64,000 nucleotides of DNA, taken from contig NC_018514.1 of NCBI RefSeq assembly GCF_000292915.1, forward strand, positions 2,852,001 through 2,916,000, given 5' to 3'. The DNA comes from Burkholderia cepacia GG4 (GTDB taxonomy: Bacteria; Pseudomonadota; Gammaproteobacteria; Burkholderiales; Burkholderiaceae). Of this stretch, positions 22,417-46,787 are shown in pieces. The position numbers and the translations under genes are program-made. Within the stretch, counting starts at the first letter, position 1, and every line of letters starts with the position of its first letter. Under the pieces are notes generated by a model. The model was given only the letters and a program-made list of their open reading frames with translations, was not told the DNA's origin and searched no databases.

Positions 22417-22429
22417 GATGGCCTCCTCG

Positions 22430-27863: not shown

Positions 27864-27900
27864 TATGTTTCGATGTGTCACTTTTTAAATGAGGCGGACC

Positions 27901-29430: not shown

Positions 29431-29494
29431 TGTTTTTGATGTCAGGCGGCAGTTCGACCATTTGGACGGACTTTTCATTTGCAGGAATGGAGTC

Positions 29495-30175: not shown

Positions 30176-30294
30176 CCCGCCGTGGCGTCAGACTGCAAGC
30201 AACACCTGGACCCAGCTGTAGCGATGAACCCAGTTGCAAACTTGCTGAAACTATTCCGTGCGCGATGGCGCATTTAGTAAGGAGGATTATCCAA

Positions 30295-30855
30295 ATGAGC
30301 ACCAAATTGAACGGTATTGATGTAGCTGCCCTTCAGGATTTTGCGCAAGGTGTAGCAAATGCTACAGATGCTTCCAAGCGCAGCGCCCGATTCAACGTCA
30401 AGACGAAATGGGAGCATCAGACCCGGTCGGTTGCAACCGTGAGCCGATACTCGCTGCTTGGAGTTGAGTATCCGCGGCACTTTGAAATCGCGGCAGATGA
30501 GCCTACGGAGTTTCTCGGTCAAAATTCCGCACCGAACCCTCAAGAGCTTCTTATGGCCGCACTCAATGCGTGCCTTTCTGTTGCCTACGCCGTCAATGCA
30601 GCGGCGATGGGTATCACCATTCATAGCCTCGAGATCGAGACTGATGGGGAACTTGATCTGCGCGGCGTTCTCGGCCTGGATGAGAGCGTCAATCCTGGCT
30701 ACGACCAGGTGAACTACGTCGTTCGACTGGATACCGATGCCCCGCGTGAGAAGGTTGAAGAGCTTCACCAAGTCGTTACCAAGACCTCTGTGAATCTGGC
30801 GAATTTCTCCAAGGCCATTCGCATGGTATCGAAGTTGGAAATTAAAGAATCCTAA
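30295..30855 (+). CDS. OsmC-family peroxide reductase-like protein
   Basis: A 186-residue OsmC/Ohr-fold protein. The start at 30295 (MSTKLNGIDVAALQDFAQGV) has AAGGAGG at good distance. The central segment NPQELLMAALNACLSVAYAV carries the conserved Cys of the OsmC active site; a second peroxidatic cysteine is not evident, so it is closer to the single-cysteine OsmC-like group. It would reduce organic hydroperoxides in the cytoplasm. The neighbours (DsbA-like, old yellow enzyme) support a role against electrophile and peroxide stress. Confidence 0.87.
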   Translation: MSTKLNGIDVAALQDFAQGVANATDASKRSARFNVKTKWEHQTRSVATVSRYSLLGVEYPRHFEIAADEPTEFLGQNSAPNPQELLMAALNACLSVAYAVNAAAMGITIHSLEIETDGELDLRGVLGLDESVNPGYDQVNYVVRLDTDAPREKVEELHQVVTKTSVNLANFSKAIRMVSKLEIKES

Positions 30856-30936
30856 ACTAAGGATCACCTCCCACCACCATCAGATTGAAACCAAGCGGCG
30901 GCGCTCGCGCTGCTGCTCCCCTGCTTGAGGTATGAA

Positions 30937-32186: not shown

Positions 32187-32227
32187 TTTTGTGTTGTTCT
32201 GTTGTCACTTTATAAGGAGTTTTTCAA

Positions 32228-32569
32228 ATGATGAACGATTGGAAGAGCGCGCTCGGAAATCTCGTCAAAGGTGTCGGTAATTTCGCGAAAGCGAACCCGC
32301 CAGTGGTCGAGGCATTCAACAAGCTCGAGAAAGCGACTGGCGACGGGGATGTATTGGATGCCAAAACGCGAGAGCTGATTTCGTTGGCTGTAGCGGTGAC
32401 TACGCGCTGTGATGGCTGTATCTCTGCGCACGCCGCGGCGGCACAGAAAGCAGGGGCTAGCAAGGCCGAGGTCGCCGCGGCGCTTGGCACGGCGATTGCA
32501 TTGAACGCTGGTGCTGCCTTCGTATACTCCACCCGGGCGCTCGAAGCATTCGACCAATTTGGTGAGTAA
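32228..32569 (+). CDS. Carboxymuconolactone decarboxylase-family (AhpD-like) protein
   Basis: A 113-residue single-domain AhpD-fold protein with AAGGAG upstream. The redox motif is CDGCISAHAAAAQKAG (CxxCxxxH near residues 62-69). The remaining helices (SKAEVAAALGTAIALNAGAA) are typical. Enzymes of this type reduce peroxides or act as small disulfide reductases. It is short compared with the two-domain family member at 14034. It begins a new unit followed closely by the MalY-type gene. Confidence 0.88.
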   Translation: MMNDWKSALGNLVKGVGNFAKANPPVVEAFNKLEKATGDGDVLDAKTRELISLAVAVTTRCDGCISAHAAAAQKAGASKAEVAAALGTAIALNAGAAFVYSTRALEAFDQFGE

Positions 32570-32623
32570 TCGACATTAAATCCCTTGAGGACCGATGCGG
32601 TTCTGAATGAGAAGAGAGACGAA

Positions 32624-33805
32624 ATGTACGATTTTGACGAGATTCTCGACCGCAGTCGGTCCAACTCGATGAAGTGGGCGCAGGCGCGGCAGTGGCTTAC
32701 ACCAGAGCAATACGCGGCGGATCCGCTGCCGATGTGGGTCGCGGATATGGACTTCCGCGTTGCCCCTCCGATTTTGGACGCGCTTAGCCGTGAGCTCGAA
32801 CTGGGCGTGTTCGGGTACGGTGGAACACCAGATTCGTATCGTGAGGCAGTAGTGGACTGGCAATTGCGGCGTTTCGGATGGCGGGCCGTGCCGGAGTGGA
32901 TCACACAGTCTCCGGGTGTAATCAGCGCGCTCAACATGGCGATCCAGGCTTTCTCGCGACCTGGTGACTTCATCTTGGTGCAGACGCCCGTGTATTTTCA
33001 TATCCATTCTGACGTAGTCGTCAACGGGCGGCGTTTGGCACAAGCGCCACTCGTATTGAAGGGAGGCCGATACCACTTTGACCCTGAGGTATTTGAGGCC
33101 GCGATTCGTCCCGGAACCAAGCTGTTCATTTTGTGTAATCCACACAACCCAACGGGCAACGTGTGGACACGAGACGAACTGCTCACGATGGCATCGATCT
33201 GTGAGCGCCACGGAATCCTGGTGATATCCGACGAGGTACATCAAGATCTGATCTTCGGCAACGGAAAGAAGCATGTTCCATTTGCCTCGCTGAACGACGC
33301 CGTTGCTCAAAACTCTATCGTGTGCACGGCACCGAGCAAGACTTTCAATATCGCCGGACTCTCCTGCGCCAACATCTTCATCCCGAACGAGCGGCTTCGC
33401 CAAACCTATCGTGCGCAGGGTGAAAGGAATGGCTCTTTCCTCGTCAATACGATGGGCACCGCTGCTTGCGAAGCGGCGTATCGACACGGCGAACCGTGGG
33501 CGGATGCAATGCTCGAATACGTTCGAGGCAACCAGGAGCATTTCGCGAAGCGCATCAACGAACTCAACCTTCCCTTGCTTGTAACGCCGACTGGTGCGCT
33601 GTATTTGGCATGGGTTGATTTTCGGGGGCTTGGCATGGCCACTGCTGAGCTTCATGACCTCTTGCTGCGCCGAGCACGGCTGTGGCTTGATCCTGGCTCA
33701 AAATTTGGCGTGGAAGGAGAGGGTTTCATGCGCATCAATCTCGCGTGCCCGAGAAGTGTTGTAGACGAAGCCTTGTTACGCCTTACCAGTGCGTTGTCTG
33801 ATTGA
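32624..33805 (+). CDS. MalY/PatB-type PLP-dependent C-S lyase (aminotransferase fold)
   Basis: A 393-residue fold-type I PLP enzyme. The ATG at 32624 (MYDFDEILDRSRSNSMKWAQ) follows GAGAGACG. Motifs are PMWVADMDFRVAPPILDAL at the N-terminus, the DEVHQDLIF segment and the PLP lysine in APSKTFNIAGLSCAN (about residue 239), with the phosphate-binding Arg in FMRINLACPR. MalY/PatB enzymes split cystathionine and cysteine S-conjugates to pyruvate, ammonia and thiol. The next gene is an amino-acid permease, so uptake and cleavage of a cysteine conjugate is a possible joint role. Confidence 0.9.
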   Translation: MYDFDEILDRSRSNSMKWAQARQWLTPEQYAADPLPMWVADMDFRVAPPILDALSRELELGVFGYGGTPDSYREAVVDWQLRRFGWRAVPEWITQSPGVISALNMAIQAFSRPGDFILVQTPVYFHIHSDVVVNGRRLAQAPLVLKGGRYHFDPEVFEAAIRPGTKLFILCNPHNPTGNVWTRDELLTMASICERHGILVISDEVHQDLIFGNGKKHVPFASLNDAVAQNSIVCTAPSKTFNIAGLSCANIFIPNERLRQTYRAQGERNGSFLVNTMGTAACEAAYRHGEPWADAMLEYVRGNQEHFAKRINELNLPLLVTPTGALYLAWVDFRGLGMATAELHDLLLRRARLWLDPGSKFGVEGEGFMRINLACPRSVVDEALLRLTSALSD

Positions 33806-33862: not shown

Positions 33863-35362
33863 GTGGATAATTTTCACGAAAGCACAGCTGTTAGAGGGGT
33901 GTCAAGGCATGGAAGCCCCGTAAACAAGGAGGAATGGCTCAATTCTCACGAAAATGGTTATGAAAAGAAGTTAAAGCCTAGGCACGTGAGAATGATCGCA
34001 ATGGGAGGCGCAATTGGAACCGGCTTGTTTCTTGGAGCCGGAGGGCGATTGCAGAGTGCGGGACCGGCGTTGGCACTCACATATCTTGGTTGTGGTGTAT
34101 TCGCGTTCTTCATTATGCGAGCACTTGGCGAGCTCGTCATGCATAGACCGACATGTGGGAGCTTCGCGTCTTATACCCGTGAGTTCATGGGAGAGCGAGC
34201 TTCATTTGTCACGGGCTGGATGTACTACTTAGCATGGGCGGCCACCGGCATCGCCGATAGCACGGCTATCGCAATCTATCTGAAGTACTGGACCATCTTT
34301 TCGGACGTACCCCAGTGGGTGATTGCCTTGGGAGCACTCACTCTAGTGTCGGCCACGAACATGATCGGCGTGAAGCTCTTTGGAGAAATGGAGTTCTGGT
34401 TCGCCGTTGTTAAGGTTGGTTCAATAACACTATTTCTGGTTATCGGGACATTCTTTCTCGCAAGCGGTCATTCCGTCGATGGGCATGTGGCTGGGCTACA
34501 GCTCATTGCGAAAAATGGCGGAATCTTTCCGCATGGTGTCCTGCCTGCAGTTCTTATTGTGCAGGGGGTAGTCTTTGCCTACGCCAGCATTGAACTCGTT
34601 GGAGTCGCAGCGGGTGAAACTGAAGATGCACGCAAAGTGTTGCCGAAAGCGATTAATAGCGTTATGTGGCGAATCGCGCTCTTCTATGTCGGATCTGTGG
34701 TGCTTCTGGTCATGCTTTTGCCTTGGACAGCCTATAGCGCGCACGAGAGTCCGTTTGTAACGTTTTTCGGCAAGCTTGGAGTGCCATACATCGGTGACGT
34801 TATGAACGTTGTGGTGCTCACTGCAGCGTTTTCAAACCTTAATGCTGGTTTGTACTCCACTGGACGCGTGCTGCGGTCTCTCGCGATGGGGGGATCAGCG
34901 CCTCGATTCGTCGCCAGGATGAATGCAAATGGAGTGCCCTATGGAGGCATCGCGGTAACCATCGGGCTCATTGCAATCGGCGTTCCGTTGAATTATGTCG
35001 TCCCGCAGCAGGCATTTGAGATTGTTCTCAATGTTGCCGCAATCGGAATCGTGACGACATGGGGATCCATCGTTGCTTGTCAGATTCTGTTTCGACGTGC
35101 AGTAAATCGCGGGGAGCTTCAGGGCGTCTCGTTTCGCATGCCTGGCGCGCCATTTACGTCGTGGCTTACGTTGGCATTTCTTTGTGGCGTAGTAGTTTTG
35201 ATGGCCTTCGACTATCCTAACGGAACGATGACTTTTTCAATGATCCCAGTACTGGCCATGGGGCTGGCCATTGGTTGGCGCATTGCAAAACGCAGGACGT
35301 CATATCAGAAAGGTCAGTTTGATATATCGGCTTGTACGCAAGTGGACAGAGTGGATGGTTAG
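33863..35362 (+). CDS. Amino acid permease (AAT family, AnsP/GabP-like)
   Basis: A 499-residue inner-membrane amino acid:proton symporter with 12 hydrophobic segments. The start is GTG at 33863, with AAGGAGACATCTT in front. The family signature MIAMGGAIGTGLFLGAGGRL starts near residue 45. Then GWMYYLAWAATGIADSTAIA and the conserved helix-8 region ELVGVAAGETEDARKVLPKA follow. The closest E. coli-type relatives by eye are AnsP and GabP; the substrate cannot be fixed. It directly follows the MalY-type gene. Confidence 0.9.
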   Translation: MDNFHESTAVRGVSRHGSPVNKEEWLNSHENGYEKKLKPRHVRMIAMGGAIGTGLFLGAGGRLQSAGPALALTYLGCGVFAFFIMRALGELVMHRPTCGSFASYTREFMGERASFVTGWMYYLAWAATGIADSTAIAIYLKYWTIFSDVPQWVIALGALTLVSATNMIGVKLFGEMEFWFAVVKVGSITLFLVIGTFFLASGHSVDGHVAGLQLIAKNGGIFPHGVLPAVLIVQGVVFAYASIELVGVAAGETEDARKVLPKAINSVMWRIALFYVGSVVLLVMLLPWTAYSAHESPFVTFFGKLGVPYIGDVMNVVVLTAAFSNLNAGLYSTGRVLRSLAMGGSAPRFVARMNANGVPYGGIAVTIGLIAIGVPLNYVVPQQAFEIVLNVAAIGIVTTWGSIVACQILFRRAVNRGELQGVSFRMPGAPFTSWLTLAFLCGVVVLMAFDYPNGTMTFSMIPVLAMGLAIGWRIAKRRTSYQKGQFDISACTQVDRVDG

Positions 35363-35515
35363 TGAGCATGTGTGGAGGATGGTATTAAGAGGGGGCTATC
35401 TTTTGAAGGGGGTATTTATAGGTCGTGTGGCTTGGGAGTGAAAGTTCGTTTTCCTGCGTTTCTATCGAATGCAGCTATCGTTAACTTGTCGCAGTATCGA
35501 ATAATGGAGGGTTGT

Positions 35516-35734
35516 ATGCCGTTGGTTACTATCAAGGGAATTGAAGGTGTTTTCAGCTCGGAAGAAAAGCAAAAGGCTATTCGTGCAGTCCACGATGCAA
35601 TGGTATCAATCGAAGGAAAAAATATGGAGGAGGTTACTTGGGTGATATTTGAAGAAGTGAAATCTGGAGACTGGTCGATCGGCGGGAAAATGTTGACCGC
35701 TGCGGATGTGAAAAAAATCCAGGCTGGAGATTGA
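35516..35734 (+). CDS. 4-oxalocrotonate tautomerase-family protein
   Basis: A 72-residue tautomerase. The ATG at 35516 has GGAGGG 5 bases upstream. The mature protein would begin with the catalytic proline (MPLVTIKGIEGVFSSEEKQK). The rest (AIRAVHDAMVSIEGKNMEEV, TWVIFEEVKSGDWSIGGK) follows the 4-OT pattern, including the WSIGG motif of the family. These enzymes act as hexamers on 2-hydroxymuconate or related enols, and some dehalogenate haloacrylates. Confidence 0.87.
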   Translation: MPLVTIKGIEGVFSSEEKQKAIRAVHDAMVSIEGKNMEEVTWVIFEEVKSGDWSIGGKMLTAADVKKIQAGD

Positions 35735-36139: not shown

Positions 36140-38083
36140 TTGCCGTATGTGTACTCCCCAATACAGTCGGAGACGATGGTGCCCCTCGAGATCCACCGCG
36201 CGAAAGGTAGCGCGTTAGCGGCGCAAACAGTGCGAGCGTCTTGGCAGCGTTCGGGTGCAGCAGGACTTATTGAGACGCAATATATCCGCCCGCCGGTTGT
36301 TTCCCGCGACGACATACTTGCGGCAAAAGACCGCAATTGCAAACTTCTGAAGTATGGCGAGCCATCGGTCGAGAACTCATACGAACAAGTGGCGGGCACC
36401 TGTAGTGTGGTGTTGCTGGCGGATGCCACAGGAACTATTCTCTCGAGTAGAGGCGATGATGAGTTCATGCTAGGGGAGCAGGGGCGATTTTTTCTTCCCG
36501 GCGTGTGCTGGTCTGAAAGAGTCGCTGGCACTAACGCAATCGGCACGTGTCTGGCCAACCGGGCGCCGATTAGTATTGACATGGCTGAACATTATCTTAT
36601 CCAGTATCGCTCTCTTTGTGGCTCGGCTGCTCCGGTTTTCGACTCTGGGGGGCGGATTGTCGGCGCAATAGCTGCATACAGCACAAATACGGCTACACAG
36701 TTACATACGCTTGCTTTTATCCGAACCGTCGCCATCTTGATCGAAAATCGGATGCTAGCGCGCGAGATGGCTAACGAGATCATCATTAGCTTTCATCCAA
36801 TCGCGGAACACATCGGCACTATCAAGCAAGGGATTGTGGTATTTGGACATAATGGAAGACTATTGGGATTGAACAGCGCGGCGCGCTCAATCTTGCACAT
36901 CGATTCGCAGGAGGAGGTCACAAGTCGATTCGCAGAGTTGTTTGCCTTCGACTTCTCTCTGGAGAGCTTGGTCGAAAAAGTGCATGCTAGCGGAAACTGC
37001 CAGTTCACGGCATTGCTCCGAGATGGCCGCGAAGTGACGCTAGTGGTCAGCATTGGCGCAGCCAGTGACTCTGCTTCTTCGCATCAGCGAGCAGTGACGA
37101 CTCAACCATTGTCCAGCCAGTCATCTTCCCGCGCAAAACGTGAGCATTTTCTTCTTAAAGATCTTGACCTTGGGGATCCTCAGATACAGCGTGCGATTCT
37201 TAAGGCCTCGATGATTCTTGGCTCGGACATCCCGCTTCTTATTGAGGGGGAATCAGGTGTCGGCAAGGAAGTATTTTCGGCAGCATTTCACAATTCCGGT
37301 CCGCGCAACGGCGGACCTTTTGTCGCCGTAAATTGTGCTGCAATTCCGGAGGGGTTAATCGAGTCAGAATTGTTTGGGTATGAGGAGGGGGCGTTTACAG
37401 GGGCAAAGAAAAAGGGGTATCCAGGAAAGATTTTGCAGGCAAATCGAGGGACCTTATTTCTTGACGAGATTGGGGATATGCCGATTTCTTTGCAAACCAG
37501 ACTCCTCAGAGTGCTTCAGGAGCGACAGGTGACGCCACTTGGCAGTACCCATAACACACCCGTGGATGTCTCTATTGTGTGTGCAACGCATCGGTCGATG
37601 CGTGCGGAGATTGCTGCGGGCCGATTTCGGGAAGATCTCTACTATCGGTTAAATGGTCTTCGTATTCACCTTCCCGCACTTCGGGAAAGAAAGGACATAG
37701 ATCGACTTATCGACTTTGTTATCGAGACGGAGAGCGGCGGCCGAAGAATCGATGTTGCTCCAAACATTCGCAGTGCGCTTCGTACGCATCCATGGCCAGG
37801 TAACATCAGACAGCTGCAGATGGTTCTGCGTACGGCGCTTGCAATTCTGGGTAACGGCAATCATCTAGAGCTGCAGCATCTACCCGACGAATTCCTGCAG
37901 TCGGAAGAATCGAGTGATTTTTCCATCGGGACCGCACGCTGCGGCGACTTGGCGCACATCGAGCTGGAGGCGATGCGAAGGGCAGTAGATACCGCTGGCG
38001 GCAATATGTCGGAGGCTGCGCGGACGTTGGGTATCAGCCGAAAGACACTGTACCGAAAACTGAAAAGGACGCCGCCCAAGTAG
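36140..38083 (+). CDS. Sigma-54-dependent transcriptional activator (AcoR-like)
   Basis: A 647-residue enhancer-binding protein. The N-terminal part (about 70-190) is a GAF-like sensor of the AcoR type (ERVAGTNAIGTCLANRAPIS). A PAS-like segment follows near 230-310. The AAA+ domain has Walker A GESGVGKE (about 370), the sigma-54 contact loop GAFTGA (about 417) and Walker B GTLFLDEIGDM; the motifs are intact. The C-terminal Fis-type helix-turn-helix is in MSEAARTLGISRKTLYRKLK. The downstream divergent operon has two -24/-12 promoters around a palindrome (44915-45190), so this is their likely activator. Its inducer may be a sulfonate. Confidence 0.93.
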   Translation: MPYVYSPIQSETMVPLEIHRAKGSALAAQTVRASWQRSGAAGLIETQYIRPPVVSRDDILAAKDRNCKLLKYGEPSVENSYEQVAGTCSVVLLADATGTILSSRGDDEFMLGEQGRFFLPGVCWSERVAGTNAIGTCLANRAPISIDMAEHYLIQYRSLCGSAAPVFDSGGRIVGAIAAYSTNTATQLHTLAFIRTVAILIENRMLAREMANEIIISFHPIAEHIGTIKQGIVVFGHNGRLLGLNSAARSILHIDSQEEVTSRFAELFAFDFSLESLVEKVHASGNCQFTALLRDGREVTLVVSIGAASDSASSHQRAVTTQPLSSQSSSRAKREHFLLKDLDLGDPQIQRAILKASMILGSDIPLLIEGESGVGKEVFSAAFHNSGPRNGGPFVAVNCAAIPEGLIESELFGYEEGAFTGAKKKGYPGKILQANRGTLFLDEIGDMPISLQTRLLRVLQERQVTPLGSTHNTPVDVSIVCATHRSMRAEIAAGRFREDLYYRLNGLRIHLPALRERKDIDRLIDFVIETESGGRRIDVAPNIRSALRTHPWPGNIRQLQMVLRTALAILGNGNHLELQHLPDEFLQSEESSDFSIGTARCGDLAHIELEAMRRAVDTAGGNMSEAARTLGISRKTLYRKLKRTPPK

Positions 38084-38170: not shown

Positions 38171-39322
38171 CTAAGTGATGGTCGGCGGTAGGAGGATGTC
38201 GCGGTTCACTGAGCGGATGGTATTGCGGCCGCAGAAGGCCATGGACAAGTCCAACTCACGCTGAATGATAGAGAGCGCGACCTCTACGCCCTTCTGACCC
38301 ATTGCGCCCAGCCCGTAGAGCATGGCGCGGCCGATGTAGGTGCCCTTCGCGCCAAGCGCAATGGCCTTGAGCACGTGCTGGCCACTGCGGATTCCACCAT
38401 CCATATGCACCTCGATCCGGCTGCCGACGGCATCGACGATGGAGGGTAGTGCGGAGATTGAGGAGGGCGCGCCATCGAGTTGCCGGCCGCCGTGGTTGGA
38501 GACAATGACTGCATCCGCCCCTGACTGAGCTGCGAACTCCGCGTCCTCGACATCCTGTATCCCCTTGAGTATTAGCTTGCCGTTCCAGCGGCTCCTGATC
38601 CACTCCACGTCATCCCAGGAAAGGCGCGGGTCGAACTGCTTCGCTGTCCACTCCGAAAGCGAGCCCATGTCCTGTACCCCCTTGACGTGGCCGACGATAT
38701 CGCCAAATTGGCGCCGTCGGGTGCCCAACATGCCGAGGCACCAGTGTGGCTTGCTCATCAGGTTCAGCATGTTGACTAGCGTAGGCTTTGGCGGCGCTGA
38801 CAAGCCGTTCTTCAGGTCCTTGTGGCGTTGCCCCAATACCTGCAGGTCAAGTGTGAGCACAAGCGCAGAACAATTTGCTGCCTTAGCGCGCTCGATTAGA
38901 TCCTCGACGAAACCTCGATCGCGCATGAGGTACAGCTGGAACCAAAAGGGGTGCTGGTTCGTTCCTTCGGCAATGTCCTCGATCGAGCAAATGCTCATAG
39001 TGGAGAGCGTGAAGGGTATGCCAAATTTCTTTGCCGCGCGCGCGGCAAGGATCTCGCCATCAGCATGCTGCATGCCGGTAAGACCAGTCGGTGCGATCGC
39101 CACGGGCATTGCCACCTCCTGACCGAGCATCGTGGTACGCGTGCTTCTGTTGTCGATGTTCACGGCCACACGCTGGCGGAAAAGAATGCGATCAAAATCC
39201 GTCTCGTTCGCACGGTAGGTACTTTCGGTCCACGAACCTGAGTCGGCGTAGTCATAAAACATGCGAGGTACGCGCCTTTTGGCAAGCTTGCGCAGGTCCT
39301 CGATAGTCGTAATCACGTGCAT
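38171..39322 (-). CDS. FMN-dependent alpha-hydroxyacid dehydrogenase/oxidase (LldD-like)
   Basis: A 383-residue enzyme of the family of L-lactate dehydrogenase LldD, mandelate dehydrogenase and glycolate oxidase. The start at 39322 (MHVITTIEDLRKLAKRRVPR) follows AGGAA. Motifs: FYDYADSGSWTE, MPVAIAPTGLTGMQHADGE, FQLYLMRDR, the catalytic His-Gly-Gly region VSNHGGRQLDG and DGGIRSGQHVLKAIALGAKG. Active-site Arg is in NHGGRQ. It is the last gene of the seven-gene operon and would oxidise the hydroxyacid made by the AldA-type enzyme: glycolate to glyoxylate or lactate to pyruvate. Confidence 0.9.
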   Translation of the reverse strand: MHVITTIEDLRKLAKRRVPRMFYDYADSGSWTESTYRANETDFDRILFRQRVAVNIDNRSTRTTMLGQEVAMPVAIAPTGLTGMQHADGEILAARAAKKFGIPFTLSTMSICSIEDIAEGTNQHPFWFQLYLMRDRGFVEDLIERAKAANCSALVLTLDLQVLGQRHKDLKNGLSAPPKPTLVNMLNLMSKPHWCLGMLGTRRRQFGDIVGHVKGVQDMGSLSEWTAKQFDPRLSWDDVEWIRSRWNGKLILKGIQDVEDAEFAAQSGADAVIVSNHGGRQLDGAPSSISALPSIVDAVGSRIEVHMDGGIRSGQHVLKAIALGAKGTYIGRAMLYGLGAMGQKGVEVALSIIQRELDLSMAFCGRNTIRSVNRDILLPPTIT

Positions 39323-39440
39323 GGCGCTCTTATTTCCTGAAGAGTTTTTTGAGTGGCGAAGCAGAGCCGCGAATAGTGGCGCGACAGCCGCGCGCGGAAC
39401 GGTCAAGTAGCAAGCGGCAGCTCGCAGAAACGATAGGCAA

Positions 39441-40268
39441 TCAAGACCATGCCATAGCGAAGATGCATAGGCCCATCGTGGAGAGGAGTAGAAATGCACA
39501 GCGCCGCACCGTTAGTTCCGAAAGTTTTGGTGGGTACCGAAGAAACAGCGCCGTTGTGACTACCACCACCGGTATCGATAGCAATCCCAACCAGATGGCA
39601 TTCGAATCGACCGACCCATCTGCCAGCAGAATGGTGAATCGCATCATCGAAACAGCGCCAAAAATTCCCAACAAGGTCAGTCGTACTTGTTCGAGTGCTA
39701 ACGGCTGCACATAGAATTGGTAGATGATGGGTGGGCCCGGAACGCTGAACAGACCGCCAAGAATGCCACCGAATCCACCGGCGATAACAAAGCTGCTTGG
39801 TGCCGACGGGATAGAACGAACCTTCGGTCGTAACCACAACATGGCGCCAGCGAGCAGGACGACCAGACCGAGGGCGAGCTGCAGCAGATGTGTGTTGCGC
39901 GTACTGAGAGCATCAAGTAGCCAGACGCCGACCGGTACCCCCGGAACGACACCGAGAAGGGTGCGAGCGAAGAGCTTCCAATTTAGATGATGGAGATTTC
40001 CGCGAAGTGTCAGCGCCGTATTCACCAACGTCATGATGTTAATTGCGGTGGCTGTGGTCTCGAGCTTCACGATCTGAAGGAGCGCGACAGCACCGAGGAC
40101 GAAGATGCCCAGAGCAAATCCCGTAAACGTCTGTAAGTAGCAGCCCACCGCCACGATGCAAAGGAAACCGATACAAGAAGCACTATTCAAGGTAATCCCC
40201 AGGAATCGCGCTCGTCCGATGCTCGATCGGATGTCGTCATGGCCAATGAATGCGCCGGCTAAATGCAA
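39441..40268 (-). CDS. TSUP-family exporter (TauE/SafE-like)
   Basis: A 275-residue membrane protein with about eight hydrophobic segments. It shows the duplicated TSUP pattern (GCYLQTFTGFALGIFVLGAV near the N-terminus and GGFGGILGGLFSVPGPPIIY in the second half). The family includes TauE and SafE, exporters of sulfite and sulfoacetate. The start is uncertain: the frame opens with a TTG at 40268. It lies 39 bp after the MFS gene in the operon. Export of sulfite released by the oxygenase is the simplest role. Confidence 0.82.
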   Translation of the reverse strand: MHLAGAFIGHDDIRSSIGRARFLGITLNSASCIGFLCIVAVGCYLQTFTGFALGIFVLGAVALLQIVKLETTATAINIMTLVNTALTLRGNLHHLNWKLFARTLLGVVPGVPVGVWLLDALSTRNTHLLQLALGLVVLLAGAMLWLRPKVRSIPSAPSSFVIAGGFGGILGGLFSVPGPPIIYQFYVQPLALEQVRLTLLGIFGAVSMMRFTILLADGSVDSNAIWLGLLSIPVVVVTTALFLRYPPKLSELTVRRCAFLLLSTMGLCIFAMAWS

Positions 40269-40307
40269 AGGCGGGAGTGAGCCGCCTTTGCTGCTATCAG
40301 AGAGGTG

Positions 40308-41627
40308 CTACACTGCGTTGGCATTCGCAGCTCGGTCGTTTGAGCGATTCGCCTTTCGGCGACTCAACGCCACAAGCCCCGCAAGTCCCAGCACTTCGGA
40401 GACAATGACGAGCATAGAAATCGGCCAAGTTCCGAACTTGGGAAGTACCGCAGTCGCGAAGAGGGGCACGAGACCACCGATGATGGTCGCAACCTGGCTA
40501 CCCAGAGAGATACCCGTATACCTGAGTTGCTCCGGGAAGAGTTCAGTGAAGTATGCCGGCATTGCGCCCCACATTGCCCACAGCGGGCCGCCCATTACCA
40601 ACATCGCAAGCCAGACCCATTTGATCTCTGCTTGATCCACAATCCTGAAGAATGGGAACGCCACTGCAGCAAGGAACAGGAATCCAACGAGGAAAATAGG
40701 CTTCTTTCCGATTCGATCCGATAATGCACCTGCTGCAATAATGCCGAAAGTGAGAAGTACATTGACCAGTACTACCCCAAGCAGAACCATCGATCTATCC
40801 AACTTCAGGATGGATGTAGAGTAGTATGTGAGGAATACCCAAACCGTATAGAAGGGTACGGTAATCGCTCCTAGATAGATAAACGCAGTGTACACAACGA
40901 CACTCGGGTGGTCTCGCAAAACTTCAACTACTGGAAATTTCGCAATCTTCCCAGCAGCCTGCACGCGACGAAATGCAGGGGTTTCGGTTACTTTGAGGCG
41001 AATATACAGACCTGACAGCATCATGATAATGCTGACCAGGAAGGGAACTCGCCAACCCCAGCTAATGAATGCCGACTTGGAGAGAAAGTACGACGCCCCG
41101 AATAGTACGGCCGTTGAAAGTGCGAGTCCTATCGTAGAGCCCATCTGGACGATGCTGCCGAAGAATCCACGTCTGTCAGCGGGAGCGTATTCGACCGCCA
41201 TTAGTACGGCACCACCCCATTCACCGCCAAGTGCGATTCCTTGTAGAAAGCGGCAGCTAGTCAGTAGAATTGGGGCCCAGATTCCGATCGTTTCATAGGT
41301 TGGGAGCAACCCAATCGCGAATGTCGAGCCACCCATAAACGTTAGAGTGGTGACGAGCATGGTTTTCCGTCCGATCCGATCGCCGAAATGTCCGAACAGA
41401 ACCCCGCCTAATGGCCGGGCGACAAACCCGACCGCCAATGTGGCGAATGAAGCGAGCGTCCCGGCGATGGAGGAGTAGGCTGGAAAAAACAGGTGACCGA
41501 AGACCAATGCTGCAGTGAAGCCGTACAGGAAAAAGTCGTACCATTCCATAATGGTACCGACCATGCTAGCGGTTGAAACCAATGCAGGAGACGCTTGAGT
41601 CTCACTGCTTTGAAAATTGCTGACCAT
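40308..41627 (-). CDS. MFS transporter, metabolite:H+ symporter (MHS/ShiA) type
   Basis: A 439-residue inner-membrane carrier with 12 hydrophobic segments. The start at 41627 has GAGGAGAC upstream. The MHS signature is clear: GTIMEWYDFFLYGFTAALVF near residue 25, RPLGGVLFGHFGDRIGRKTM, and GIALGGEWGGAVLMAVEYAP. Such carriers take up organic acids and related anions. In this operon it is the likely importer of the sulfonate substrate; this is an inference from position. Confidence 0.9.
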   Translation of the reverse strand: MVSNFQSSETQASPALVSTASMVGTIMEWYDFFLYGFTAALVFGHLFFPAYSSIAGTLASFATLAVGFVARPLGGVLFGHFGDRIGRKTMLVTTLTFMGGSTFAIGLLPTYETIGIWAPILLTSCRFLQGIALGGEWGGAVLMAVEYAPADRRGFFGSIVQMGSTIGLALSTAVLFGASYFLSKSAFISWGWRVPFLVSIIMMLSGLYIRLKVTETPAFRRVQAAGKIAKFPVVEVLRDHPSVVVYTAFIYLGAITVPFYTVWVFLTYYSTSILKLDRSMVLLGVVLVNVLLTFGIIAAGALSDRIGKKPIFLVGFLFLAAVAFPFFRIVDQAEIKWVWLAMLVMGGPLWAMWGAMPAYFTELFPEQLRYTGISLGSQVATIIGGLVPLFATAVLPKFGTWPISMLVIVSEVLGLAGLVALSRRKANRSNDRAANANAV

Positions 41628-41735
41628 CTTTTGTCTCCTCATGACCGACTTTGTGGGGAATGAGTTGATGGTGCGCCGTGAACGGTCGCAGTTATTTGGG
41701 GCGGAGGCAGTGCAAGCTAGGGGTTGCGACCGTAG

Positions 41736-42053
41736 CTACGAATCATCGACAGGGTCCACGTAGATGGCGTCTCCTTCGACGTCGACCCTGTAGACGCGGA
41801 GCGGACACTCTGCGGCCCCTACCGGTTCTCCTGTCGCGATTTTCCATTGCCACATGTGCTGATGGCAGGTCAGGACTTCTCCGTCAAACAAACCTTCTTC
41901 CAAGCCTACTTCCTGGTGTGGACAGACACTATCGCATGCGTAAATATGATCTTCCACTCGCAGCAACAGAACGCGCGTTCCCTCTCCTACGGTGAAAGCA
42001 CTCATTCCATTTTCCGCGATGTCTTGCCGATTGCAAACAAAATGACGAGTCAC
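41736..42053 (-). CDS. Rieske-type [2Fe-2S] ferredoxin component of the oxygenase
   Basis: A 105-residue soluble Rieske ferredoxin. It starts with GTG at 42053, with AGGAGGG upstream. Cluster ligands are CPHQEVGLEEGLFDGEVL and CHQHMW, spacing CxHx17CxxH. It would carry electrons from the reductase to the oxygenase alpha subunit. It lies 19 bp downstream of the reductase gene. The Rieske ferredoxin plus plant-type reductase combination is that described for methanesulfonate monooxygenase (MsmC/MsmD). Confidence 0.92.
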   Translation of the reverse strand: MTRHFVCNRQDIAENGMSAFTVGEGTRVLLLRVEDHIYACDSVCPHQEVGLEEGLFDGEVLTCHQHMWQWKIATGEPVGAAECPLRVYRVDVEGDAIYVDPVDDS

Positions 42054-42072
42054 TTTGCGTCCCTCCTAAGCA

Positions 42073-43116
42073 TCAGTTGAATTTGTCGTATGAAATACTT
42101 TTCGGACTGAGCTTGGCTTGGATTATTAGGCCTCTCATTGCCGCGTCAACGGACGGAGGCGGCCCTGCCAGAAAAGCGTGAACGTCAGAAAGTCGTCCCA
42201 TCATTTGCGTCAGCGCGATTTCGTGTACGAAGCCATGAGCGAATGAAAGCTCCGGATACTGGTCTTCGGCCTCGGGCGGAACTGCCTCATCGGAAAAGCA
42301 GACAATGACCTCGAGTGAGCCTGAAGACAAATTTCGTAGCTCAGCAAGGCGATTCAGAAAGAAAGCGCCGCGCATGGATCGCACGCCGAAGAAAATAGAG
42401 CCGGTTCTGTCTGAGAAATAATCGAGAGACTCTGCGTGGGAGATTATCGACATCATTCCGGCAATTCCGCTACCTCCGGCGATGCAAAGGAGATGCTTTC
42501 GTTCAGCGGGTTTGAAAACTGCCCGACCAAATGGACCAATCACGCGGAGTGGATAGCCAATCGGTCTCGACGTGAAGAGTGTGTCTGAGAATTCGCCGCC
42601 AGATCTCCTCTTGATGAGAAGCTCGAGTCTTCGCGAGTCACGTTCAAAATTCACGATTGAATACGCTCTATACCCCTGAATGCCTGGTATTCCGACGAGC
42701 ACGAATTGACCAGCCTCATAGTTCATCGGCTTATTCAACTCGATTTCCCAAGAGGCAACATCGTGAGTCAGAAGTTGCCATTTCACTACCGTTGCTTCGA
42801 CTTCAAACGGGGTGAACGTGTTCGGAGGTATCCGATGTATCGACTCCCTTACCTCAATTGCGCAATCACTTTGAGGCCTGCATTGGCACAAGAGGATTTC
42901 GTCGGTCTTGCCGACACCACATTTCTTTCCCGGAGCCGCCGGCCACAAATCTTCGACGGTTCCCGTCACGAGCCTAGCTCGGCAGGTACCGCAAGTTCCA
43001 CTTGCGCACGCATATGGCAGTGAGTATCCCGCGGCGAGTCCGGCCACCAAGAGACTATTGTTCCCGTCGGCATTGACTTCATGCTGACCGTTTGCGGAGT
43101 TGAATGTGATCTTCAT
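42073..43116 (-). CDS. Oxygenase reductase: plant-type [2Fe-2S] plus FAD/NADH domains
   Basis: A 347-residue electron-transfer reductase. The N-terminal ferredoxin domain has the cysteines CASGTCGTC and, about 32 residues on, LLCQC. The FAD-binding domain has the motif RAYSIVNF; the NAD-binding domain has CIAGGSGIAGMMS and a C-terminal FLAGPPPSVDAAM. It would take electrons from NADH to the Rieske ferredoxin. The start at 43116 has AGGATC just before the ATG. The gene is 12 bp downstream of the beta subunit gene. Confidence 0.92.
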   Translation of the reverse strand: MKITFNSANGQHEVNADGNNSLLVAGLAAGYSLPYACASGTCGTCRARLVTGTVEDLWPAAPGKKCGVGKTDEILLCQCRPQSDCAIEVRESIHRIPPNTFTPFEVEATVVKWQLLTHDVASWEIELNKPMNYEAGQFVLVGIPGIQGYRAYSIVNFERDSRRLELLIKRRSGGEFSDTLFTSRPIGYPLRVIGPFGRAVFKPAERKHLLCIAGGSGIAGMMSIISHAESLDYFSDRTGSIFFGVRSMRGAFFLNRLAELRNLSSGSLEVIVCFSDEAVPPEAEDQYPELSFAHGFVHEIALTQMMGRLSDVHAFLAGPPPSVDAAMRGLIIQAKLSPKSISYDKFN

Positions 43117-43128
43117 GATCCTGATGGC

Positions 43129-43593
43129 TCAGAACGGAACGTGATAACCTTTCCCGAGCATTCTGGTGTCCAGTCGTACTTCGCGGTCTACCAGAAATGC
43201 TCGTCCGTGCTCGTCGAGACGAACGTCGTCGATGTACTTGCCTACGGCAACGAGGGTAGTCGCCCCTCCTTGATGTTCGGTTCGGAATACCTGCAGAGCC
43301 GACATGACCTTCAGAATTTCTTCGCGCGCGGTATGCTCAATAGTGAAGATCGAGAAGTGACGCGTCAGGGGCGTGCGGTCCATGTTCTGCTTCGGAAGCA
43401 GATCAAAGAGATCTTTCAAGCCACGTTTGTCCTTCTCCAGCCACAGCATCTCTTTGCGGATTTCAGGGCTAAAAGTGGTGATCCGATACGTAAAGCTGTC
43501 ATCACACAGTTCCAGGTATCTCGTGTAGTCGTCTGCATCGAGTGCCAAACACGTGTTGGCGACCAGTGCACGAATAGTGCTTTCAGTTTGCAT
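43129..43593 (-). CDS. Ring-hydroxylating-type oxygenase beta (small) subunit
   Basis: A 154-residue protein of the beta-subunit fold (nuclear transport factor 2-like). The ATG at 43593 has AGGAATTG upstream; a TTG two codons earlier is less likely. Features include LALDADDYTRYLELCDDSFT and RTPLTRHFSIFTIEH, and the C-terminal FLVDREVRLDTRMLGKGYH. It would make up the alpha/beta hydroxylase with the 43645 gene. It is 45 bp downstream of that gene. The small subunit of methanesulfonate monooxygenase (MsmB) has the same place in its operon. Confidence 0.87.
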   Translation of the reverse strand: MQTESTIRALVANTCLALDADDYTRYLELCDDSFTYRITTFSPEIRKEMLWLEKDKRGLKDLFDLLPKQNMDRTPLTRHFSIFTIEHTAREEILKVMSALQVFRTEHQGGATTLVAVGKYIDDVRLDEHGRAFLVDREVRLDTRMLGKGYHVPF

Positions 43594-43644
43594 GTCCAAT
43601 TCCTGTCTTTGAAAAGGGGGATGGGATGTGAATGCTGTGTCACA

Positions 43645-44862
43645 TCACATTTCGTCGAAAGGATCGGACGATTTCCGCCCCATGCGCCGACTCCACTCTT
43701 CATAGAAGTGACGCATGCCAACCTCGTCATGGATCTTGTTGTTTTCCACTCGTGCGTGCAGGATGACGGGAGCTTCAGACCGGTCAGACAACGCCATACC
43801 TTGTCCATGCACCCCCATGAGATCTTCCGGGAGATTTCGTCCAAATGGTCCCCAGATTGAGTTGTGCATGCGAACGCGAATTGCGCGTTCTTCCGGAGTG
43901 TCGGCCTTCAGGCCTAGGCCGCGGTATTCGATACACAGCTTGTCCGGCCCAAGAGGGAGCACCGTGTCGATGCGAAATGCAGGGGCGCGAATATTGAAGG
44001 TCGCTCCCGGGAACAGATCAACCAGCGCCCACCGATTGGGCTCCAGGCCGGGCCAGCCGAGGGTTTGTTTCTCGTGCCCCTTCATTGCGTCGTACTTCAG
44101 GGTCATGTCTGTGACTTGTGCATGACCGCCTTCGTAGCTGACGAACTGGCGATCGAAGTACCCGGGTTGCAGCATGCCGGTGACTCGATTGTGATAGTGC
44201 AGGTAGTCGTGATAAAGCTCCGAGTTGGTGTCGTGCCACAGCTTGTAGTTGCTGTCGACGACTGCTCGATGGTAGTGGAATACCTCGAGCGGCTCCGACA
44301 GCATTTCTTCCAGAGGATCGAGAGCTCCGTTCAAATAGTGTTCGAGCGTCGACGCTGAATCGTCGGCGGTCACCCACACGAATCCACCGTATGCAACCTC
44401 AGACCTAAATTCACGAAGCGAAAAATCGCACTTCGAGACACGATCCTGGTAACCATCCTTTTCTCGCGGAATATCTACGCAATTTCCACGTGAGTCGAAT
44501 GCCCATGCGTGAAAAATGCATGTGATGCGCTTCGGTCCACCGGCCGCACTCGGTCCGGCAATAGACCCAGAGGCGTCATGAAGTAACAGATTTCCTCGAT
44601 GTGGGCAGATATTGTTGAAGGCGCGAATCTTATTTTCCTCGTCACGGATGATGATCATGCTGTGGCCACCCGGATGCTCGTAAATACGGTAGTCGAGCGG
44701 TCGCGGCAACTCGCTTTCGTGACAAGCGATCAGCCAACATTTGTCGAAGATCTTTTGTTGTTCCTCCTTGAAGATGCCTTCGTCCGTGTAGATCCTGGGG
44801 TCGACGAATTGTGAGGCGGGGAGTGCTGGTCTCCGGGTCCATTCCGAGCCGTTGCGCGACAT
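43645..44862 (-). CDS. Rieske oxygenase alpha subunit, methanesulfonate monooxygenase (MsmA)-like
   Basis: A 405-residue hydroxylase alpha subunit with AAGGAG before the ATG. The Rieske ligands are C86/H88 (ICPHRGN) and C115/H118 (TCIFHAW), which gives CxHx26CxxH. Usual ring-hydroxylating enzymes have 15-17 residues there; a 26-residue spacer is the published peculiarity of MsmA. The mononuclear iron site is in HDTNSELYHDYLHYHNR (H218 and H222 or H224). It is the first gene of the operon and has a -24/-12 promoter 53-68 bp upstream. Desulfonation of an alkanesulfonate to aldehyde plus sulfite is the inferred reaction; the exact substrate is not shown by the sequence. Confidence 0.88.
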   Translation of the reverse strand: MSRNGSEWTRRPALPASQFVDPRIYTDEGIFKEEQQKIFDKCWLIACHESELPRPLDYRIYEHPGGHSMIIIRDEENKIRAFNNICPHRGNLLLHDASGSIAGPSAAGGPKRITCIFHAWAFDSRGNCVDIPREKDGYQDRVSKCDFSLREFRSEVAYGGFVWVTADDSASTLEHYLNGALDPLEEMLSEPLEVFHYHRAVVDSNYKLWHDTNSELYHDYLHYHNRVTGMLQPGYFDRQFVSYEGGHAQVTDMTLKYDAMKGHEKQTLGWPGLEPNRWALVDLFPGATFNIRAPAFRIDTVLPLGPDKLCIEYRGLGLKADTPEERAIRVRMHNSIWGPFGRNLPEDLMGVHGQGMALSDRSEAPVILHARVENNKIHDEVGMRHFYEEWSRRMGRKSSDPFDEM

Positions 44863-44914
44863 TTCTGCTCCTTATGAGAAAGTGGGGCGGGTGGGTGGTT
44901 TGCGCTTCTGCAAC

Positions 44915-44930
44915 CGCACCTTCCGTGCCA
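44915..44930 (-). promoter_or_regulatory. Sigma-54 (-24/-12) promoter of the oxygenase operon
   Basis: On the minus strand TGGCACGGAAGGTGCG has the GG and GC separated by ten bases. The -24 element TGGCACG is a perfect consensus; the -12 element GTGCG matches TTGCA at three of five. The transcript would start about 40 bases before the alpha subunit ATG. Confidence 0.75.
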
Positions 44931-45037
44931 CTATTCGATGACTAAGGGAAAATGCCGACGTAATGGGAGGTTCGAGTCGCTATCAGTGGCACCCGACAGC
45001 GTTTTTGCAGATCGGGTTGGTTCGCTGACAAATGGCC

Positions 45038-45058
45038 ACTGGGTCAAATTGACCCAGT
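45038..45058. promoter_or_regulatory. Palindromic enhancer (UAS) shared by two sigma-54 promoters
   Basis: A perfect 21-bp inverted repeat with arms ACTGGGTCAA and TTGACCCAGT around one base, part of a longer GGCC...GGCC dyad. Its centre is about 144 bp from the leftward and 154 bp from the rightward predicted transcription starts, a normal distance for sigma-54 activators with Fis-type DNA-binding domains. Confidence 0.75.
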
Positions 45059-45174
45059 TGGCCCATGCTGGCTGGGACTTTTGGATACACCTCGAACTGG
45101 CCCATGCTTCCCAGAGAAGGGTAGGTATTGAGAATGAGCGCTCGACACCGGGCTGTGACCGTCAGGTCCGTATA

Positions 45175-45190
45175 TGGCATGGCAATTGCG
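45175..45190 (+). promoter_or_regulatory. Sigma-54 (-24/-12) promoter of the aldA-like gene
   Basis: TGGCATGGCAATTGCG has GG and GC ten bases apart and matches TGGCACG-N4-TTGCA at ten of twelve defined positions. The leader to the GTG start would be about 150 bases. Confidence 0.75.
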
Positions 45191-45350
45191 GGAACTGGTC
45201 ACCGGCCCGCTGATAACTGCCGCCGAGTTCTAGTGGTTTGGGGTGCGCAGATCTATCAGCGGTCCAATATTCGTAGCGTGAGATGCGCATGACCCTCGCG
45301 ACTAGTGAATGCCGGTGGGCGCAATTCAATACATATCTAAGGAGCATGAG

Positions 45351-46787
45351 GTGACAAAGGAATATCGCAATTTCATTGATGGGGTGTTCTCCACGCGAGC
45401 TCCAGCTTCCAAGGTGGAAGTGCTGAATCCTGCGACCAATGAGACGCTCGGCTACGTGCCGGATTCCGACCGCACCGAAATCGATTTGGCGGTCGATGCG
45501 GCGCGTCGCGCACAAGTTGGCTGGGAGCGTCTTCCGGCCATCCAGCGAGCCAACTACCTTCGCCGCATTTCGAGCAAGGTGAGAGAAAGCAGAGAGCGGC
45601 TGGCGGAGTTGATCACTCGGGAACAGGGCAAAGTGCTGAGCCTTGCCCAAGTTGAGGTGGACTTCACTGCCGACTACATTGATTACATGGCTGAATGGGC
45701 TCGACGCATCGAGGGCGAGGTTCTCATGAGCGATCGCCCGAACGAAACGATCCTGCTGTTGCGCAAGCCAATTGGCGTAGTCGCCGGCATCCTTCCGTGG
45801 AATTTCCCATTCTTTCTGATCGCGCGGAAGCTGGCACCTGCGCTTGTGGCGGGCAACACGATTGTTATCAAGCCGAGCGAGGAAACGCCTCTGAACGCAT
45901 TCGAGTTCGCGAAGCTGGTTGCTGAATGTGACCTACCCCCGGGTGTCTTCAATCTCGTTGGTGGTGGCCGTAACGCCGGCGCAATGCTCACAGGGCATCC
46001 AGGAGTGAATCTCGTCTCGTTCACTGGCAGCGTAAGCACTGGGGTGCATATTATGCGCGCCGCGGCTGAGAATCTGACTCGTGTCAATCTAGAGCTCGGT
46101 GGAAAGGCTCCTGCCATTGTTCTCGCGAGTGCCGATCTGGATTTGGCAGCAAATGCAATTTATCAATCTCGGATTCTGAATTCTGGGCAAGTTTGTAACT
46201 GTGCGGAGCGTGTCTACGTCGAACGGTCTATTGTTCCCGCGTTCACCGAAAAGGTCGTTGCGTTGATGAAGTCTACGACGTTCGGTGATCCCATGGCTGA
46301 TCGAACAGTCACCATGGGGCCACTCGTGAGCGCCGCGCAGCTCTCCAAAGTTGCAGCCGCCGTAGAGCGGGCCCGTGAGCAGGGAGCTCAGGTGGTACTC
46401 GGGGGAAAGGTCGCCAACCGATCTGTGGGGCACCATTACGAGCCTACCGTATTGGCCGATTGCTCGCACGACATGGACATCATGCGTACCGAGACGTTTG
46501 GCCCAGTGCTGCCGATTCAGTCAATTGACTCGCTGGATGAGGCGGTCCGCTATGCAAACGACTCGGAGTACGGACTGACGTCGTCGATCTTTGCCAATGA
46601 TCTGAATGAGGTCATGCACGCTTGCCGAGAATTGAAATTTGGCGAGACCTACGTCAATCGAGAGCATTTTGAAGCGATGCAGGGGTTCCACGCAGGTCGG
46701 CGAAAATCCGGCATTGGCGGTGCCGATGGGAAGCACGGTCTCTACGAGTACATGGAGACGCAGGCGATTTACATGCAGACCAAGTAA
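45351..46787 (+). CDS. aldA: Aldehyde dehydrogenase, AldA (lactaldehyde/glycolaldehyde) type
   Basis: A 478-residue NAD-dependent aldehyde dehydrogenase. It starts with GTG at 45351 with AAGGAGCATGAG in front. It is strikingly like E. coli AldA along its whole length: VEVDFTADYIDYMAEWARR, ILPWNFPFFLIARKLAPAL, LELGGKAPAIVL with the general base Glu, NSGQVCNCAERVYV with the catalytic Cys, and the end EAMQGFHAGRRKSGIGGADG. AldA oxidises lactaldehyde and glycolaldehyde to lactate and glycolate. It has its own sigma-54 promoter divergent from the oxygenase operon, and its product fits the LldD-like enzyme. Confidence 0.92.
   Translation: MTKEYRNFIDGVFSTRAPASKVEVLNPATNETLGYVPDSDRTEIDLAVDAARRAQVGWERLPAIQRANYLRRISSKVRESRERLAELITREQGKVLSLAQVEVDFTADYIDYMAEWARRIEGEVLMSDRPNETILLLRKPIGVVAGILPWNFPFFLIARKLAPALVAGNTIVIKPSEETPLNAFEFAKLVAECDLPPGVFNLVGGGRNAGAMLTGHPGVNLVSFTGSVSTGVHIMRAAAENLTRVNLELGGKAPAIVLASADLDLAANAIYQSRILNSGQVCNCAERVYVERSIVPAFTEKVVALMKSTTFGDPMADRTVTMGPLVSAAQLSKVAAAVERAREQGAQVVLGGKVANRSVGHHYEPTVLADCSHDMDIMRTETFGPVLPIQSIDSLDEAVRYANDSEYGLTSSIFANDLNEVMHACRELKFGETYVNREHFEAMQGFHAGRRKSGIGGADGKHGLYEYMETQAIYMQTK

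Follow-up and report, generated by a model that had tools for sequence, protein, structure and literature searches.

An intriguing question raised by this 64,000-nucleotide stretch of Burkholderia cepacia GG4 (the window) is what is accomplished by the eight-gene cassette at positions 38171 to 46787, in which a Rieske oxygenase resembling the methanesulfonate monooxygenase MsmA is encoded opposite an AldA-type aldehyde dehydrogenase. The most economical account, and one that we consider probable, is that the cassette uses oxygen to cleave a small sulfonate, releasing sulfite and an aldehyde that passes to AldA. We favor this account because the alpha subunit of the oxygenase has a 26-residue spacer in its Rieske motif and a histidine at position 224 and falls in a clade of 26-spacer proteins, because AldA accompanies the oxygenase in all four genomes that carry the cassette, with sigma-54 promoter-like sites facing AldA in each, and because a SoxC-type sulfite dehydrogenase is encoded near the cassette of Achromobacter MYb9 and elsewhere in the GG4 genome. 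The oxygenase genes of Methylobacterium nodulans, which precede genes for a TauE/SafE protein, a molybdopterin enzyme and a cytochrome, argue in the same direction. To this extent the original prediction of an MsmA-like oxygenase acting with AldA stands; the specific substrates it named, isethionate and 2-hydroxypropanesulfonate, draw on AldA and an LldD-like gene alone and are doubtful.

In the proposed mechanism, a four-component Rieske oxygenase of the methanesulfonate monooxygenase kind would draw electrons from NAD(P)H through a reductase and a Rieske ferredoxin to the alpha/beta oxygenase, which would hydroxylate the sulfonate-bearing carbon, and the product would split into an aldehyde and sulfite. 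AldA, co-induced with the oxygenase by a neighboring sigma-54 activator, would oxidize the aldehyde, while a carrier of the MHS type would import the sulfonate and a TauE/SafE protein would release the sulfite. The substrate would be a short aliphatic sulfonate, more likely of two or three carbons (C2-C3) than methanesulfonate alone. Gene content, the motif, the phylogeny, the conservation of gene order, the promoter-like sites and the step in composition are observed, as described below, whereas what alpha/beta catalyzes, on which class of substrate, what the two transport proteins do and how the genes are controlled are inferred.

All eight genes proposed originally are open frames in the expected positions and orientations and match the named families (open reading frame listing and profile scans). 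Seven form a run on the minus strand, from the alpha subunit gene to the LldD-like gene, in which neighbors are 12 to 121 bases apart; AldA lies divergently on the plus strand. The run consists of the alpha subunit (43645..44862; PF00355 and PF00848 over cut-off), the beta subunit (43129..43599; PF00866 over cut-off), a reductase with 2Fe-2S, FAD and NAD domains (42073..43116; PF00111, PF00970 and PF00175 over cut-off), a Rieske ferredoxin (41736..42053; PF00355 over cut-off), the MHS-type carrier presumed to import the sulfonate (40308..41642; PF00083 over cut-off, best NCBIfam model TIGR00883 at 390 bits, below its cut-off of 443), the TauE/SafE (TSUP) protein presumed to export sulfite (39441..40268) and the LldD-like FMN-dependent 2-hydroxyacid dehydrogenase (38171..39319; PF01070 over cut-off). 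The TauE/SafE protein scores 76 bits against a Pfam cut-off of 32.6 (PF01925) and no NCBIfam model matched it; its export activity is a prediction from the family. AldA (45309..46787, plus strand) passes the AldA-type model NF007497 (724 bits, cut-off 500), and its best solved match is 2opx, 'Aldehyde dehydrogenase A' (600 bits). A sigma-54 activator with a GAF domain (36140..38083, plus strand; PF00158, PF02954 and PF01590 over cut-off) adjoins the cassette.

In the alpha subunit, direct reading confirms the Rieske motif CxH-x26-CxxH, whose pairs C86/H88 and C115/H118 are separated by exactly 26 residues (codons for residues 86-118 at 44509..44607, minus strand), as originally noted. Conservation of the iron motif E215-x2-H218-x3-H222 reaches at least 95% in all three groups compared (of 27, 26 and 21 sequences); two outgroups have the motif as well, and it is invariant in a 23-row alignment. 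Among the best 120 of 1,391 protein matches to alpha, the spacer is 26 residues in 24 and 17 residues in 95, and one motif is broken; when the M. nodulans protein served as query, 118 of the 120 matches listed had the 26-residue spacer and two had no readable motif. Residue 224 is His in 139 of 142 listed 26-spacer proteins (two have Phe, one is unread) and Phe or Tyr in 95 of 95 listed 17-spacer proteins. The 26-residue spacer has been called a likely signature of methanesulfonate monooxygenase, every isolate for which growth on methanesulfonate by this type of enzyme is proven has the long spacer, and no substrate is known for the 17-spacer relatives (PMC4433239).

Compared with the alpha subunit of the methanesulfonate cluster of M. 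nodulans, the GG4 protein has the same spacer and His224 but lies in a different clade in the trees described next. In an 81-protein tree, the kin of the GG4 protein form a beta- and gammaproteobacterial clade of 27 rows, all with the 26-residue spacer (support 100/100); the M. nodulans 26-spacer clade is separate (26 rows, 100/100), and the GG4 clade lies beside 17-spacer groups (93/93). With the spacer letters removed (39 rows), the GG4 clade was kept at 100/100 and its nearest neighbor was without clear support; the hypothesis that the 26-spacer proteins all arose once was not rejected (p-AU 0.50). The GG4 clade includes a protein of Stutzerimonas xanthomarina (P0015), presumably the same species as P. 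xanthomarina. The published MsmA tree has P. xanthomarina in its beta/gamma group (PMC4433239). A genome of the same order (G112) contains three Msm-type alpha genes (L023, L033 and L036), one with the 26-residue spacer and two with the 17-residue spacer.

One possibility is that the cassette encodes an ordinary methanesulfonate monooxygenase in a non-methylotroph, yielding formaldehyde and sulfite. That the M. nodulans clade also has this spacer and His224 speaks for it, but AldA stands in place of a formate dehydrogenase, the order of the components differs, and Variovorax WS11, which carries the same core cassette, did not grow on methanesulfonate (PMC7143210), so we regard this form as very unlikely. 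A different alternative is that the oxygenase acts on a non-sulfonate such as an amine, an ether or an aromatic acid, with the aldehyde still going to AldA and the TauE/SafE protein exporting another anion. An AlphaFold2 model of alpha of fair quality (mean pLDDT 83.0, pTM 0.87) had as its nearest solved folds terephthalate dioxygenase, which ranked first, salicylate 5-hydroxylase and carnitine monooxygenase, and this alternative also gains from the substrate of the 17-spacer relatives not being known. The 50 nearest folds listed are only 17-23% identical, though, the proven methanesulfonate users have the long spacer, and a SoxC-type sulfite dehydrogenase lies near the MYb9 cassette; SoxC, cytochrome and TauE-like genes likewise lie near a 17-spacer cluster (L038). 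We consider a non-sulfonate substrate unlikely. It had been recognized that clustering of alpha with an aromatic dioxygenase of known substrate would tell against an MsmA-like enzyme, and no such affinity emerged: the best PDB sequence match reached 91 bits, and the comparison was made by match scores and folds, with no tree including those enzymes. An aromatic ring dioxygenase is thus rejected as the family on identity, while aromatic chemistry is still possible.

Turning to the recurrence of the cassette, the alpha gene is rare. Within the genus it was found in one of 65 genomes, that of the window itself, and in Achromobacter in one of 43. Matches at E <= 1e-60 occurred in 13 of 399 genomes of an order sample and in three of 398 of a family sample (at most four candidates per genome scored), all those other than the window being at most 64% identical, and a phylum sample gave three of 398 genomes at E <= 1e-100, window included. 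A search of genome contigs returned 11 loci, two of them in the GG4 clade, Variovorax WS11 (82%) and Achromobacter MYb9 (78%), and of 814 matching plasmid records one exceeded 60%, that of Paraburkholderia graminis PHS1 (84%). In these three genomes, as in the window, the alpha, beta, reductase, ferredoxin, MHS and TauE genes run one way with AldA divergent (four of four genomes). Identities to the window's proteins are 61-70% for beta, 49-65% for the reductase, 53-63% for the ferredoxin, 69-77% for the MHS carrier, 42-64% for TauE and 70-85% for AldA. Recurrence of the core in three further genera at 42-85% protein identity is more than chance. The sigma-54 activator adjoins the cassette in PHS1 (61%) and MYb9 (47%); no such gene lies within 10 kb of it in WS11.

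Among 14 stretches round the 17-spacer relatives (including the 26-spacer L051 and the outgroup L050), the order alpha-beta-reductase-ferredoxin occurs in eight, a related MHS carrier in none, and homology to AldA in L050 only (37%). At L019 and L050, in Comamonadaceae-type genomes, two distant oxygenases with the 17-residue spacer (38-39% identical) lie beside genes for an acylating acetaldehyde dehydrogenase and an aldolase, and those at L050 are 80 and 86% identical to their WS11 counterparts. At the 17-spacer cluster L038, genes of SoxC-like (54%), cytochrome-like and TauE-like kinds occur together in 19 kb, which suggests that short-spacer enzymes may also cleave sulfonates.

Regulation may offer a further link between the oxygenase and AldA. 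The divergent region of the window contains a sigma-54 promoter-like site facing alpha (44915..44930, minus strand) and another facing AldA (45175..45190, plus strand), each with 10 of 12 letters. Across the divergent regions of the four genomes (1,702 bases), six -24/-12-like sites with at least 10 of 12 letters were found, compared with about 0.17 expected from a background of 67 in 677,581 bases of fetched stretches, those six included. Four of the six face AldA, in four of four genomes. The alpha-facing sites are those of the window, 68 bases before the start, and of MYb9, 62 bases before it and with 12 of 12 letters; the WS11 site is weaker (8 of 12, 63 bases), and the PHS1 divergent region has no sigma-54-like site facing alpha. 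The best score of a region was reached by 10 of 300 letter shuffles for the window, 1 for WS11, 0 for MYb9 and 18 for PHS1. Taken with the neighboring activator gene, the sites suggest that AldA and the oxygenase may be controlled together. Only two 12-of-12 sites occur in the 677,581 bases, the one facing the MYb9 alpha gene and one at 32485-32500 in the window, about 100 bases before the gene for a PatB-type C-S lyase. The latter was not used to tie PatB to the same regulator since it lies within the frame of a CMD protein, and no site of at least 10 of 12 letters precedes the PatB genes of the other scanned stretches.

If the cassette releases sulfite, the fate of the sulfite is of interest. 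The GG4 genome encodes a SoxC-type sulfite dehydrogenase (603 bits, cut-off 420) on the same contig, 1.14 Mb from the cassette, and MYb9 encodes one near its cassette (591 bits, same cut-off). The small frame after the MYb9 gene is related to the one after the GG4 gene, which appears from its sequence to encode a cytochrome c and was matched by no NCBIfam model. The GG4 stretch around SoxC (L091/L066, G000:C2:1738000-1768000), a second sulfur-related one in this genome, also holds an M20 amidohydrolase and an MHS carrier, together with relatives of the window's SDR (58%), PatB (56%) and amino-acid permease (37%). Sulfite could accordingly be oxidized or exported in GG4.

An alternative within the favored account is that the oxygenase acts on isethionate or 2-hydroxypropanesulfonate. 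The glycolaldehyde or lactaldehyde formed would be converted by AldA to glycolate or lactate and then by the LldD-like enzyme to glyoxylate or pyruvate. E. coli AldA, the nearest solved protein, acts on glycolaldehyde and lactaldehyde and prefers hydroxyaldehydes, and the AldA-type model is passed. The LldD-like protein, which ends the operon in the window and is the sole family member at E <= 1e-40 in the GG4 genome, passes PRK11197 (424 bits, cut-off 376) but falls below the cut-off of LldD itself (NF033901, 369 of 550 bits). We judge that its frame is likely to start at 39319 and not at 39499; the scan covered the shorter form only, and the FMN_dh profile aligns from residue 13 of that form. 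The best match to Xsc in the GG4 genome, 309 bits, is below the curated cut-off of 676, so the usual isethionate route appears to be missing there; matches below the threshold also occur in all 14 control genomes. WS11 and MYb9, however, have Xsc over the cut-off and would not need the cassette for isethionate. That LldD belongs to the pathway, as first proposed, likewise finds support in some genomes only. A gene of this type is near the cassette in two of four, in MYb9 adjoining AldA, but the stretches fetched round the WS11 and PHS1 cassettes have none, the two nearby proteins are only 37% identical, and the seven LldD-family genes in MYb9 at E <= 1e-40 weaken the evidence from the one near its cassette. 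We regard a hydroxyalkanesulfonate substrate as doubtful. This form, the methanesulfonate form and the plant-derived one described below are narrower versions of the favored account and fall within the probability given to it.

The genes upstream, which lie outside the interval covered by the original prediction, suggest another source of sulfonate. Nine genes on the plus strand (27889-35734), directly upstream of the sigma-54 activator gene, begin with six resembling the thiosulfinate-tolerance (alt) clusters: an SDR (27889..28701; SDR models matched, none over cut-off; 54-78% identical to counterparts in PHS1, MYb9 and the onion-isolate Burkholderia plasmid pBC25416), a TetR regulator (28757..29317; PF00440; 62-73% identical in PHS1, MYb9 and pBC25416), a DsbA family protein (29426..30175; PF01323), an OsmC family protein (30148..30855; NF041052, 74 of 95 bits; 79-82% to annotated OsmC proteins), an alkene reductase (OYE; 30925..32040; NF007899, 361 of 403 bits; 77-79% to annotated alkene reductases) and a CMD (AhpD-type) protein (32216..32566; PF02627 over cut-off). 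They are followed by the PatB-type C-S lyase (32585..33805; TIGR04350, 418 bits, cut-off 340; PatB 6qp3 among the best solved matches), an amino-acid permease (33863..35362; best model NF011623, 703 of 773 bits) and a 4-OT type tautomerase (35372..35734; PF01361 over cut-off; 61% to that of pBC25416). Plasmid pBC25416 has eight of the nine kinds together (SDR, OsmC, TetR, CMD, DsbA, alkene reductase, PatB and 4-OT, at 34-82% identity), and the tautomerase belongs with this set. By gene kinds, the stretch matches an alt cluster, and thiosulfinate tolerance is predicted.

It is possible that the cassette acts on C2-C3 alkyl or alkenyl sulfonates without substituents, derived from Allium-type cysteine sulfoxides. 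The sulfoxides would be imported by the permease and cleaved by PatB, the thiosulfinates would be handled by the alt-like proteins, and oxidation would yield the sulfonates, from which the cassette would free sulfite. The alt-like genes lie near the cassette in three of four carrier genomes, with seven of the nine kinds in PHS1, whose set on NZ_CP024936.1 has been named alt-like (PMC12306174), and five in MYb9 with four at a second place about 31 kb away. The association is suggestive; four carriers are few, and all of these genes are accessory DNA. The nearest TetR copy is 10-15 kb from alpha in the window, PHS1 (73% identical) and MYb9 (65 and 62%), and the order sample of 399 genomes (up to eight candidates per genome scored) yielded no TetR other than that of the window itself and one at 39%. 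WS11, by contrast, has no alt-like genes within 10 kb of the cassette and no related TetR in its genome, and of 14 plasmids, mostly from Burkholderia, with the TetR at 60-80%, one (PHS1) carries the oxygenase. The acylating acetaldehyde dehydrogenase that, with a 4-hydroxy-2-oxovalerate aldolase, follows AldA in WS11 and PHS1 fits plain aldehydes, but a 2,4'-dihydroxyacetophenone dioxygenase-family gene lies beyond the aldolase in PHS1, so the pair may there serve another pathway; in WS11 and PHS1 these two enzymes might belong to a meta-cleavage lower pathway. No gene was found that would convert thiosulfinate or thiol to sulfonate, and the preference of E. coli AldA for hydroxyaldehydes is also unfavorable. 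WS11 does not grow on ethanesulfonate (PMC7143210). An Allium-type substrate is in our estimate about as doubtful as a hydroxyalkanesulfonate.

The G+C content is 0.47-0.64 from 16 kb to the window end, compared with 0.67-0.69 in the first 16 kb, and this step places the cassette in acquired DNA. We rate as improbable the broader idea of one acquired island consuming plant sulfur defense chemistry end to end, in which cysteine sulfoxides would be imported and split by PatB, thiosulfinates tolerated in the manner of alt clusters, C2-C3 sulfonates desulfonated by a non-methylotrophic MsmA branch under sigma-54 control, and the aldehydes fed through AldA to central metabolism. If so, some alt clusters would be part of a feeding system, and the MsmA family would have a role outside methanesulfonate. 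Four long minus-strand frames at 16714-23809 look transposition-like by eye and have no Pfam or NCBIfam match. An acyl-CoA ligase (50322-52244), 3.5 kb after AldA, is near propionate--CoA ligase, although its 744 bits fall short of the cut-off of 955, and has 5gxd as a solved match (989 bits); it could act on propionate or acrylate but was left out of the account, tblastn having found no homologue in 12 stretches, seven of them round other carriers. A P-loop ATPase of the Sll1717 family (54189-55826; 190 bits, cut-off 75) also matches an anti-phage model weakly, under its cut-off.

Several observations weigh against sulfonate cleavage by the cassette. Neither methanesulfonate nor ethanesulfonate, at 5 mM, supported growth of WS11 (PMC7143210), which counts against the simplest forms, although uptake or regulation could explain it, and WS11 has no close SoxC homologue (best E 3e-5). 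Alpha is 57-64% identical to 17-spacer proteins, compared with 53% to the M. nodulans protein, outside whose clade it falls. The exporter and the MHS carrier match broad families only, and no msmEFGH-type genes are among the frames listed from 20 kb to the window end, no genome-wide search having been made.

Should the favored account be correct, it would matter beyond this locus. The 26-spacer msmA has been put forward as a gene that indicates methanesulfonate cycling (PMC4433239), and if the beta/gammaproteobacterial branch cleaves other sulfonates, msmA surveys would count the wrong process. A gene set that breaks down C2-C3 sulfonates oxygenolytically would be a further route in addition to Xsc. 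The link to thiosulfinate tolerance provides a testable idea of where the substrate originates.

Parts of the system have been described before. GG4 has two chromosomes, CP003774 and CP003775 (PMC4540015), and CP003775 is listed with NC_011892 of M. nodulans among the msmA of cultured strains (PMC5068391). For WS11, an msmABCD cluster has been described that has the 26-residue motif and is accompanied by genes for a proline/betaine-type transporter and a sulfite exporter (PMC7143210); the accessible description makes no mention of AldA. Of the combination that was not known to have been described, the oxygenase, carrier and exporter are thus already in print. On their combination with AldA and LldD, as on the link to thiosulfinate tolerance, a literature search covering few subscription papers found no paper. 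The search also returned nothing bearing on an isethionate-cleaving Rieske oxygenase or on ethanesulfonate, and thiosulfinate was absent among the matches listed when it was combined with desulfonation, methanesulfonate or alkanesulfonate. In the accessible text, the word 'sulfonate' is absent from PMC7119367 and PMC13178969, as are 'monooxygenase' and 'sulfite' from PMC12306174.

Compared with known systems, the cassette is like Xsc-dependent degradation of isethionate and taurine in that a sulfonate would enter and sulfite leave through a TauE-type exporter, and unlike it in that cleavage would be oxygenolytic rather than thiamine-dependent and no Xsc over the cut-off is present in GG4. MsmABCD of Methylosulfonomonas methylovora, compared through M. 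nodulans pMNOD01, shares the 26-residue spacer, His224, the grouping of alpha/beta, ferredoxin and reductase genes and a nearby TauE/SafE gene. The GG4 alpha protein nevertheless belongs to a separate clade, the order is alpha-beta-reductase-ferredoxin rather than alpha-beta-ferredoxin-reductase, and an MHS carrier, a divergent AldA and a sigma-54 activator are present, with no formate or sulfite dehydrogenase beside the cassette. The putative msmABCD of WS11 shares the core, with the MHS carrier, the exporter and the divergent AldA among its parts (63-85% identity), but has no LldD-type, sigma-54 or alt-like gene within 10 kb and the acylating acetaldehyde dehydrogenase and aldolase instead. 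With the alt and allicin-resistance clusters of Burkholderia, Pantoea and Pseudomonas PfAR-1, whose set is osmC, sdr, tetR, dsbA, trx, ahpD, oye, 4-ot, kefF and kefC (PMC7119367), the upstream genes share SDR, TetR, DsbA, OsmC, alkene reductase, CMD/AhpD and tautomerase, seven of the ten PfAR-1 kinds. Whereas trx, kefF and kefC are absent from the window's listed frames, an amino-acid permease and the putative desulfonation cassette follow.

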